DNA from: Planctomycetota bacterium
Lineage (GTDB): Bacteria > Planctomycetota > UBA8742 > JACQVU01 > JANLHZ01
DNA: 36,372 nt
Reading direction: 5' to 3'
Assembly (NCBI GenBank): GCA_024653775.1
Contig: JANLHZ010000061.1
Coordinates: forward strand, 1-36,372
Under the pieces are notes generated by a model, which ran no database searches, had not been told where the DNA came from, and saw only the letters and a list, made by a program, of their open reading frames with translations. Shown here piece after piece: positions 33,603 through 36,372 of the stretch (position 1 is the first letter of the stretch; each line of letters begins with the position of its first letter). The position numbers were made by a program, and so were the translations under genes.

Positions 33603-34411
33603 CGCTGCGTCTCCATCACGAGTTCGCCGAGCGTTCGGGAGACGTTTCCGAACCGTAGCGCCGCGAAGAAGCTGGCGCAAACGACAACGAACAAGGTATC
33701 GACCGGTTTCCAGCGCAGTTCCCGGTTCGTCCGCAACGTTCCGTCGAAACCCCGCGCGAGCATCGCCTGATGCAGTCGAAGTCCGCGGTCGTACGCGCGA
33801 ATCAGCAGATGCCCGGCGAGGGACGCGAAAACGGAGACTCCGGGATTTCGCGCGCCTCTTGATCTTAGGGAGTGCGCGCGGGCCATCCGGTACGCCTCAT
33901 CCGCGAGGATGAAAACGAATCTGTAAAGGAGAAGGAACTGAGTTACCAGCAGCCTCGGCGCGCCGAGTCCCGCGAGTCCGGCGCAGGTGCGAACGTAACC
34001 CGTGCATGCGAGCAGAACCAGCGCGCCGCTGACGCTGAGCGAGAATCTGAGAAGAATCGAAATGAAGCTGATCCAGCCCGAGGAAATCGAGATGGAACCG
34101 ACGACGATCATTTCCCGCGTGTCGAGCAGCGGATTGAAAATCCCGACCATCACCGCGAAAGGCGACGCGATCAGCAGGTACCGCGCCACCACTCCGAACG
34201 GCACAGCTCCGAGCGAGATCATAATGATCGGGTAAACGAAAAACGGAAGCAGATTCTCGATCTCGTACTTCGGATACGACACGACGGCGAGCACGAACAG
34301 CGCCGTCGCGATCAACATCGCGCGGGGATCGATGCGGTTTGCGATTCCGCCACGGGACGAAAGTCTGTCGAGCGCGTCGATGTCGCCTAAAACTGTGTTC
34401 AGCATCGCCAT
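33599..34411 (-). CDS. ecfT: ECF/CbiQ-type transmembrane coupling protein (T component)
   Basis: 270 residues with about five or six hydrophobic helices and the two coupling-helix motifs of T components: AHSLRSRG (about 178-185) and AMLARGFDG (about 215-223), the Ala-x-x-x-Arg-Gly pattern that docks into the ATPases. It begins 1 base inside the stop of the upstream metallopeptidase gene (TGATG) and overlaps ecfA by 4 bases, so the three are surely cotranslated. The N-terminus (LNTVLGDIDALDRLSSRGG) matches CbiQ-like proteins. The imported substrate is unknown; a transition metal is the best guess. Confidence 0.9.
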   Translation of the reverse strand: MAMLNTVLGDIDALDRLSSRGGIANRIDPRAMLIATALFVLAVVSYPKYEIENLLPFFVYPIIMISLGAVPFGVVARYLLIASPFAVMVGIFNPLLDTREMIVVGSISISSGWISFISILLRFSLSVSGALVLLACTGYVRTCAGLAGLGAPRLLVTQFLLLYRFVFILADEAYRMARAHSLRSRGARNPGVSVFASLAGHLLIRAYDRGLRLHQAMLARGFDGTLRTNRELRWKPVDTLFVVVCASFFAALRFGNVSRTLGELVMETQR

Positions 34412-35967
34412 CAGTCGTCCTCCCGACTGATGGCGAGCGTGGCTGTGACCTCCGCTTCGGAAAGGTGGCGCCGGAGCGTCCGCGCGGGAGTCTCCTGCCT
34501 CTCGGCCCTGAACAGTTCGCCCGGAAACCTTAGTCTCGCGCTTTCGATCGCGCTGGCGTTAAGATCGGTCGCGGCGACGAATCGAATCTCGCGCCTACCC
34601 TCGAACCGGATCAGAACCATCGTCACACCAGCCGCAGGACGGTAGAACGGATGCGATGGACTGTAGAAGTCGCTCCCGAACGGCTTTTTACCGAGGACGT
34701 AAACTCCGCGTTCGTCCGCGTAGCCTTCCTCGTCCGGAGTTTCGTGAAAGCGCCTGCCATAGTAGCCGAGGGAGGGATCGCGCTCCGAATGATGGACGCT
34801 CACGTTAGCGGAAGACGCGGGCGCGCCTCCGGACATTATTTCGAGCTTGACTGTCCCTGGAACGATCGTCAGGACCGATCCGTAGCGCGATCTGTCCGCG
34901 GGATGGAGCCGCGCGCCGGAGTTGAGCGCTAGCGCGTGCGCGGAATGGTTCGAGAGTCCCGCGCGATAGTCGTTCCCCATCAGACCGTTCACCCGTGGCG
35001 AGAAGATTTCGTCGTCGATCCCGATTTCGAATTCCTCGCGAATGGCGCGCGGAACTTCGCGCCCGAAGACGCGGAACGCGTAAAGATCGACGAGGCCGAG
35101 TCCGTGCCCAAGTTCGTGGAGCAGCGAGTAATCGATGCTCTGGACGCGCTCCGGGTCCGCGTAGCGACCGATCCACGATCTCGCGTGAATGTCCGATAGC
35201 CTGACGTCCGCGGGAAGCTCCATCCGAGGCAGGAAGTCCTTCGAAGCGAAAAGACGATGGAAGTCCCAGCGCACCTCCGCTTTCCGGTCCGCCTCGTAGC
35301 TCTCGAACTGTTCGTCGTCGCTTACGAAATTCACGTAATCGACGCGCAGAATCGAACGCTCGTTCGCTCGCGAATCGCTTGCTTCCCCGGACTCGCGGTA
35401 GAGTCGGTTCAGCTCTCGGACGTGAGCGTTCAGCCAGTCGTGAAACGACTTCGTCCCGATGGAGTTCTCCGCGCCCTCGATCGTCCGCGCGAAACTCCGG
35501 TGGACGTAGAACCCGGAGGAGCGAGCCTGTACGCTCGTCGCGATCTCGTTGTTTTCCTTGGTGAACTCCGCGATGAGGTTCTCCGAATCCACCGCCACCG
35601 AAATTTCCGTGTCGATCGCGCGCTCGTTCTCCGCACTCTTGCGATGCACGCGGAACGCGAATCTGATCACTGCTCCCGAAGCGAGGCCGTCCACGGGAAT
35701 GTGCTCGCGGATGCCGCCGTCCTCCTTGAATGTCACGCGGAACCTCTGATCGCAGTTCGCGCCCTGGTTCACGATCTCCGCGATGAACGTCGCGTCCGAC
35801 CTTTGTCCGTAGTCCGAATCCGGCCCCGCGTAATCCGTCAGCGGCGCGCGCCTCAGCATCCGCACCGCAAAGTCCGGCAGCGCTTCGCTCGCGGACGCGC
35901 CCTCTGCGAACGCGAACGAAACGAGCAGCGCGATCAGTATCGGCGTGGTTTTATCTTTTGCCGGCAT
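34411..35967 (-). CDS. secreted metzincin-like metallopeptidase with CARDB-like domain
   Basis: 518 residues from ATG 35967, which starts a signal peptide (MPAKDKTTPILIALLVSFAF, likely cleaved near ASA-SEA). The longer frame to 36087 is rejected. Residues about 28-150 look like a CARDB beta-sandwich (FIAEIVNQGANCDQRFRVTF; SGAVIRFAFRVHR). The catalytic site is H284-E285-x-x-H288-x-x-G291-x-x-D294 (HELGHGLGLVD) with a possible Met-turn at M330 (NGLMGND). That is a metzincin-type zinc site with Asp as third ligand, as in snapalysin. A beta-rich C-terminal region (about 360-518) includes a carboxypeptidase-regulatory-like strand set. It is the first gene of the unit with ecfT and ecfA, overlapping ecfT by one base. 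The functional link with the transporter is unknown. Confidence 0.85.
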   Translation of the reverse strand: MPAKDKTTPILIALLVSFAFAEGASASEALPDFAVRMLRRAPLTDYAGPDSDYGQRSDATFIAEIVNQGANCDQRFRVTFKEDGGIREHIPVDGLASGAVIRFAFRVHRKSAENERAIDTEISVAVDSENLIAEFTKENNEIATSVQARSSGFYVHRSFARTIEGAENSIGTKSFHDWLNAHVRELNRLYRESGEASDSRANERSILRVDYVNFVSDDEQFESYEADRKAEVRWDFHRLFASKDFLPRMELPADVRLSDIHARSWIGRYADPERVQSIDYSLLHELGHGLGLVDLYAFRVFGREVPRAIREEFEIGIDDEIFSPRVNGLMGNDYRAGLSNHSAHALALNSGARLHPADRSRYGSVLTIVPGTVKLEIMSGGAPASSANVSVHHSERDPSLGYYGRRFHETPDEEGYADERGVYVLGKKPFGSDFYSPSHPFYRPAAGVTMVLIRFEGRREIRFVAATDLNASAIESARLRFPGELFRAERQETPARTLRRHLSEAEVTATLAISREDD

Positions 35968-36234
35968 TCTGGAACCCGTTCCTCGAAAAACTCCGTAATC
36001 GCCCGATTCACAGAGCTTATGATAGCGCCGCGGAGGGAGAATTCGTAATTCGTTGTTCGTAAATCGCGGAGAACCTTCCTGCAGCATTTGAGGAGTTAAT
36101 AGTTGGTATTGCGGAATTGGGACAGAATTTTTCTGAAAACGTGCTTGAACTCATTGGATTGAATAGACCATAATCTATACACTTGCCATACAAAGCAAAT
36201 CTACAGAGATTCTCACCGTTCCTCGGAGTAATAT
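35968..36234. other. divergent gap between metallopeptidase and the edge lipoprotein gene
   Basis: 267 bases with no convincing gene, riboswitch or RNA. It contains heptads at 36041-36068 (ATTCGTA, ATTCGTT, GTTCGTA, AATCGCG) and an AT-rich half toward the lipoprotein gene. The minus-strand frame at 36017-36343 has no family features and runs opposite the better-supported lipoprotein start. Confidence 0.55.
36041..36068. repeat. heptad repeat (ATTCGTA type)
   Basis: Four degenerate 7-base units: ATTCGTA, ATTCGTT, GTTCGTA and AATCGCG. They lie 74 bases upstream of the metallopeptidase start, inside the rejected N-terminal extension of that frame. Confidence 0.6.
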
Positions 36235-36372
36235 ATGCGTAACTGGCTTTCCGTTTGCGGGGGGGGGGCCTATGCCTCGTTTTTCTCATATCTTGCGATT
36301 CGTCGGATGTAGTTAGATTCGCGAACGGGGCAAAGTCGGACACATCGGCTGATGAAGCGGCGATTGTTGCGG
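36235..36372 (+). CDS. partial lipoprotein gene with G10 tract shifting the frame in the signal peptide
   Basis: The ATG at 36235 is preceded by GGAG 7 bases upstream. The frame reads MRNWLSVC then hits ten consecutive G (36259-36268) and, as written, stops 17 codons after the run at a TAG (36310-36312). If the run were 8 or 11 G, the product would continue CLVFLISCDSSDVV..., with LISC as a perfect lipobox and an open frame to the window edge. So either the tract is phase-variable, the gene is off in this sequence, or the base count is wrong. The mature part begins DSSDVVRFANGAKSDTSADE; too little is present to name a family. Confidence 0.65.

Follow-up and report, generated by a model that had tools for sequence, protein, structure and literature searches.

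A poly-G tract in a lipoprotein signal peptide as a putative contingency locus, one of about 20 slippery repeats behind start codons in a planctomycete genome

Introduction

Neisseria opa and Helicobacter oipA/hopZ reportedly carry their repeats, (CTCTT)n and (CT)n respectively, inside signal peptides, and none of these systems is known to use more than one repeat type. The locus described here resembles them in that a repeat in the leader peptide would switch the reading frame in a multi-copy family, of surface proteins there and of presumably surface-exposed proteins here, whereas it differs in that repeats with units of one, two and four nucleotides occupy one and the same position within a single family.

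The poly-G/C contingency loci of Campylobacter and Neisseria, such as hmbR, constitute a close mechanistic parallel (PMC8355987, PMC3786947, PMC5084427). In both cases a G/C homopolymer lies within an open reading frame, a change by one unit shifts the frame and many such loci occur in one genome; the products are surface proteins there and probably here as well. However, the present case is found in Planctomycetota, its tract is tied to the n-region of the signal peptide, and the products are unrelated. Judged by these sequence features, the locus would belong to the same class and work in the same way. The tetranucleotide contingency loci of Haemophilus influenzae (PMC2651432) likewise have an array early in the reading frame, but the arrays here are shorter (3-8 units) and lie in a secreted-protein family confined to the source genome. 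The Vlp and Vpma systems of mycoplasmas also comprise lipoprotein families with changing expression combinations, which here would be expected, but they are shuffled by site-specific recombination (PMC11868660) instead of being controlled through the frame in the signal peptide. Work on slipped-strand contingency loci has dealt chiefly with host-adapted pathogens (PMC3711429, PMC11868660), and repeat-based phase variation is possible outside pathogens (PMC3711429). Avoidance of mono- and dinucleotide repeats extends to all prokaryotic phyla, the Planctomycetes among them (PMC4060949), and our searches of the open-access literature turned up no account of contingency loci in that group.

The stretch of DNA analysed here (the window; 36,372 nt) is contig C6 in its entirety, from a Planctomycetota metagenome-assembled genome (MAG), whose assembly comprises 5.42 Mb in 331 contigs. 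Based on the anatomy of the locus, its reading frames, its paralogs, the enrichment of long runs and their recurrence in several families, we propose that the G10 tract near the end of the window is very probably a contingency locus, at which slipped-strand mispairing would bring about translational phase variation.

Anatomy of the poly-G locus

The features of the locus are collected in Table 1. The initial annotation had described a Shine-Dalgarno sequence and an ATG leading into eight codons and ten G, a frame that soon stops, and, with one G more or two fewer, a frame that continues through a lipobox and stays open; all of these elements were recovered. With 8 or 11 G the frame reads LCLVFLISCDSSDVVRFANGAKSDTSADEAAIVA and contains no stop up to the contig end, which lies 104 nt 3′ of the tract.

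Table 1. Coordinates of the features at the poly-G locus in the window
Feature	Coordinates	Strand	Remarks
Intergenic region with presumed promoter	35968..36234	.	common to divergent gene 34411-35967(-); from sequence
Shine-Dalgarno GGAG	36225..36228	+	6 nt ahead of ATG; position kept in paralogs C175, C312, C19, C271
Start codon (ATG at 36235) and signal-peptide n-region MRNWLSVC	36235..36258	+	24 nt
G10 tract, putative slipped-strand ON/OFF switch	36259..36268	+	OFF at 10; ON at 8 or 11
ON-frame hydrophobic core and lipobox LCLVFLISC	36270..36296	+	same frame unbroken in C175
Predicted lipidated Cys codon, ON frame	36294-36296	+	LCLVFLISC
Mature lipoprotein, first 25 codons, ON frame	36297..36372	+	up to contig end
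TAG closing the OFF frame after 25 codons	36310..36312	+	from sequence

The ON frame has the makings of a signal peptidase II substrate, as LISC matches the strict lipobox ([LVI][ASTVI][GAS]C) and is preceded by an n-region and a hydrophobic core, so that a lipoprotein is predicted. The tract occupies codons 9-12, near the 5′ end of the frame, and its repeat unit is not a multiple of three; G8 and G11 lead into the frame that C175 also uses, and G10 leads to a stop, such that one length would give the full protein and the others a truncated one, with the 3′ end of the window gene itself lying beyond the contig. The divergent neighbour at 34411-35967(-), whose start was placed by its signal peptide (MPAKDKTTPILIALLVSFAFAEGASA), codes for a putative metallopeptidase, which is secreted and carries a HELGH motif.

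Paralogs of the window gene

A search with the downstream frame retrieved a paralogous family on further contigs, and the lack of a conserved protein downstream, which the initial annotation had named as a refutation of its reading, therefore does not apply. The family consists of members on C175, C271, C312, C19, C195, C117 and C97 together with fragments, some bearing a tract and others fixed in frame. The 24 nt from the start codon to the tract are common to C175 and C312 and nearly so to C19 and C271, and the same architecture occurs in C271 (G9), C312 (GGT followed by G8) and C19 (G10). In C175, TGGGGG replaces the G10, giving TGC TGG GGG CTA where the window has TGC G10 C CTA. This copy carries the same signal peptide and lipobox and reads MRNWLSVCWGLCLVFVISCDSSDVVRF onward without a break for 829 aa, up to its contig end, which bears out the earlier view that the gene is real in its ON frame. 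The ON frame of C271 is open for 880 aa, to the end of the stretch fetched. No tract is present in C195, C117 and C97, and the last of these (stretch L053, 2440-2620) has its frame broken roughly 1 kb from the gene start, at a place without a repeat.

The query search for the family in 40 relatives and against the contigs of other genomes returned matches in its own genome only, G001, the sole same-order genome compared, being likewise without a match. In Pfam no family scored above its cut-off; a ZU5-domain assignment was considered and rejected, as C175 scored 15.1 bits vs the gathering cut-off of 21. The predicted structure of C175 was uninformative (pLDDT 32).

Long G/C runs are concentrated behind start codons

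Within the window, the G10 tract is the only G/C run longer than 6. A sample of 744 kb of the genome contained 67, 7, 1 and 0 runs of 6, 7, 8 and at least 9, from which about 1.6 runs of at least 9 would be expected genome-wide, vs 13 observed; therefore, the tract is not a chance run. At least 9 of the 13 directly follow the start codon of a gene for a secreted protein (G runs in C6, C19, C271, C216, C227, C153 and C309; C runs in C41 and C63), so that such tracts are longer and commoner at the signal-peptide place than by chance. A hydrophobic core follows the tract in all nine except C153, where the contig ends at the tract and the coding sequence 5′ of it is identical to the one in C227. 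Among the remaining runs, C94 is uncertain, and C182, C303 and C323 are apparently not of the start-codon kind. With overlapping matches counted separately, the pattern of Shine-Dalgarno, ATG and tract was matched 7 times for poly-G and 3 times for poly-C, vs 0 for either in the reversed control. Heptanucleotide tandem arrays of 3-12 units are also numerous in the genome sample (L195 12468, L226 12563, L242 1-85 and others).

A second family in which four repeat types occupy one position

A shared N-terminal domain occurs in 18 copies in the genome, and its alignment against 149 genomes of the phylum found it in its own genome only. All copies but C147 carry a simple repeat at the signal-peptide place, this being poly-G (C216, C309, C227 and C154, the last with 7 G), poly-C (C41, C63, C231 and C275), (AC)8-12 (C170, C316, C33 and C253) or (GTCA)n (8 units in C293, 5 in C257, 4 in C189 and about 3 in C291 and C149). 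Tract lengths vary among paralogs with similar flanks, namely 6/8/9/10 for poly-C, 8/9/9/12 for AC and 4/5/8 for GTCA. The three GTCA sites of at least 3.5 units in the 5.4 Mb all fall within this family, as do 4 of the 7 (AC) sites, the other three having no long reading frame behind them. The geometry that had been recognized at the window locus is thus supported by homologous and non-homologous loci genome-wide, all with the repeat in that position and with four types of repeat among them.

The 245-aa shared domain was predicted to fold into beta strands followed by helices (pLDDT 80), and its matches in the PDB were weak, the best credible ones being avidin-like. HELGH/HEFGH motifs occur near the end of the part read in C309 and C216. 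At G000:C258, the same (AC)12 array occurs twice, 1.4 kb apart and with unchanged flanks (25938 and 27355), and no long frame lies behind either copy.

Frame states and alternative explanations

Among the 16 scorable tracts, 15 are OFF, C189 being the one ON; the state was computed for 14 loci (13 OFF), and the same calculation also puts C312 and C231 in the OFF state. The excess over the two thirds expected has P ~0.01 (0.0096 computed for 17 loci), with loci that are not independent and start codons that were themselves predicted. An additional cause is therefore needed for the excess, and OFF may have been favoured at the place of sampling.

That nearly all tracts look out of frame might also suggest that homopolymers, which are prone to error, were miscounted in sequencing or assembly and that the gene is always in frame, the more so as the window locus comes from a single MAG contig ending shortly past the tract. 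However, the (AC)n and (GTCA)n repeats, which are not prone to such error, are equally out of frame in the same gene family, and start codons are strongly favoured as the place for long runs to follow, which makes this explanation very improbable; the G10 alone may have been miscounted, but the locus would still be hypermutable.

Slightly less probable still is a decaying pseudogene family with permanently broken frames. Some members are dead, with a stop in the ON frame of C63 and one behind the signal peptide in C147, and C253 (L073 2811-2905) and C231 (L075 reverse strand, 2094-2188) are cut by an identical sequence of about 90 nt that reaches both contig ends and is probably a terminus of a mobile element that has inserted into each. 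Nevertheless, the frames stay open for 496-920 aa beyond the tract in C41, C271, C216 and C309, the strict lipobox is retained in 7 of 8 members of the lipoprotein family, the breaks fall at repeats and not at random, and the differences between C6 and C175 over 102 nt 3′ of the tract number 2/4/9 at codon positions 1/2/3, i.e., 9 of 15 at the third.

The least probable is that slippage during transcription, or programmed frameshifting by the ribosome, yields a constant in-frame share at the tract without any change of DNA. This would account for the OFF lengths in most copies, and the slipperiness of runs of 9-11 G for polymerases and ribosomes lends it some credit. However, neither process would be expected at the (AC)n and (GTCA)n arrays that occupy the equivalent position in further copies of one family, and the differing sign of the shift needed for ON (+1 in C6 and C216, −1 in C19 and C309) speaks against it as well.

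A proposed mechanism of phase variation

Phase variation by slipped-strand mispairing accordingly stays our preferred reading, and the approximately 20 slippery repeats that closely follow the start codon in genes for large secreted proteins are best read, from their sequences, as a phasome of contingency loci. Mispairing at replication would change the repeat length between the start codon and the signal-peptide core. With 8 or 11 G the ribosome would stay in the lipoprotein frame, while with 9 or 10 G, as in the assembled OFF state, it would terminate within a few dozen codons, and the frame shift would thus decide whether the secreted lipoprotein is made. ON and OFF would be random for each gene, a bet-hedging strategy familiar in human pathogens, and the window gene would be one of at least 16 scorable repeat-controlled secreted-protein genes in the genome; if so many loci switch at random, neighbouring cells would show different combinations of surface proteins. 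Since MutL is present in the genome, there is no need to invoke a general mutator state. Slippage would take place in living cells, the products would be displayed at the surface, and the benefit might be escape from phage, grazers or host.

A further-reaching proposal, possible though somewhat doubtful, is that of an order-wide phasome of about 20 surface proteins, in which G, C, AC and GTCA repeats were recruited at the signal-peptide position of one family, nearly all genes are OFF at any time and each cell shows one or a few, amounting to frame-based antigenic variation. The multi-family set in an uncultured planctomycete, together with the same geometry in its sole order-level relative, suggests a wider strategy and raises the question of what selects for contingency loci in planctomycetes. 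One practical consequence is that automated annotation gets a set of surface proteins wrong in such MAGs.

Occurrence in related genomes

The genome was placed near Planctomycetota by the cysteinyl-tRNA synthetase (CysRS) of the window, whose nearest matches are Planctomycetota MAGs at 43-47% identity. In G001, C10 tracts lie behind the ATG of three paralogous secreted proteins, all counted OFF (C176, C361 and C362), G11 and G12 tracts lie in two lipoprotein signal peptides (C280 and C328), and a C11 tract lies in a lipoprotein with a 1020-aa frame counted ON (C373). These proteins are unrelated to those of the source genome and have the same geometry. The tracts inspected in the same-class genomes sampled (G002, G009 and G012) were not of the start-codon kind. 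A ranking of lineages across the phylum by raw counts of Shine-Dalgarno, ATG and tract was abandoned, because many matches resemble GC-rich background. Elsewhere in the phylum, two cases were found in G055 and one in G035; these are poly-C tracts that follow the start codon in genes for secreted proteins and belong to distant phylum members (C97 and C449 of G055, and C150 of G035; L372, L373 and L376).
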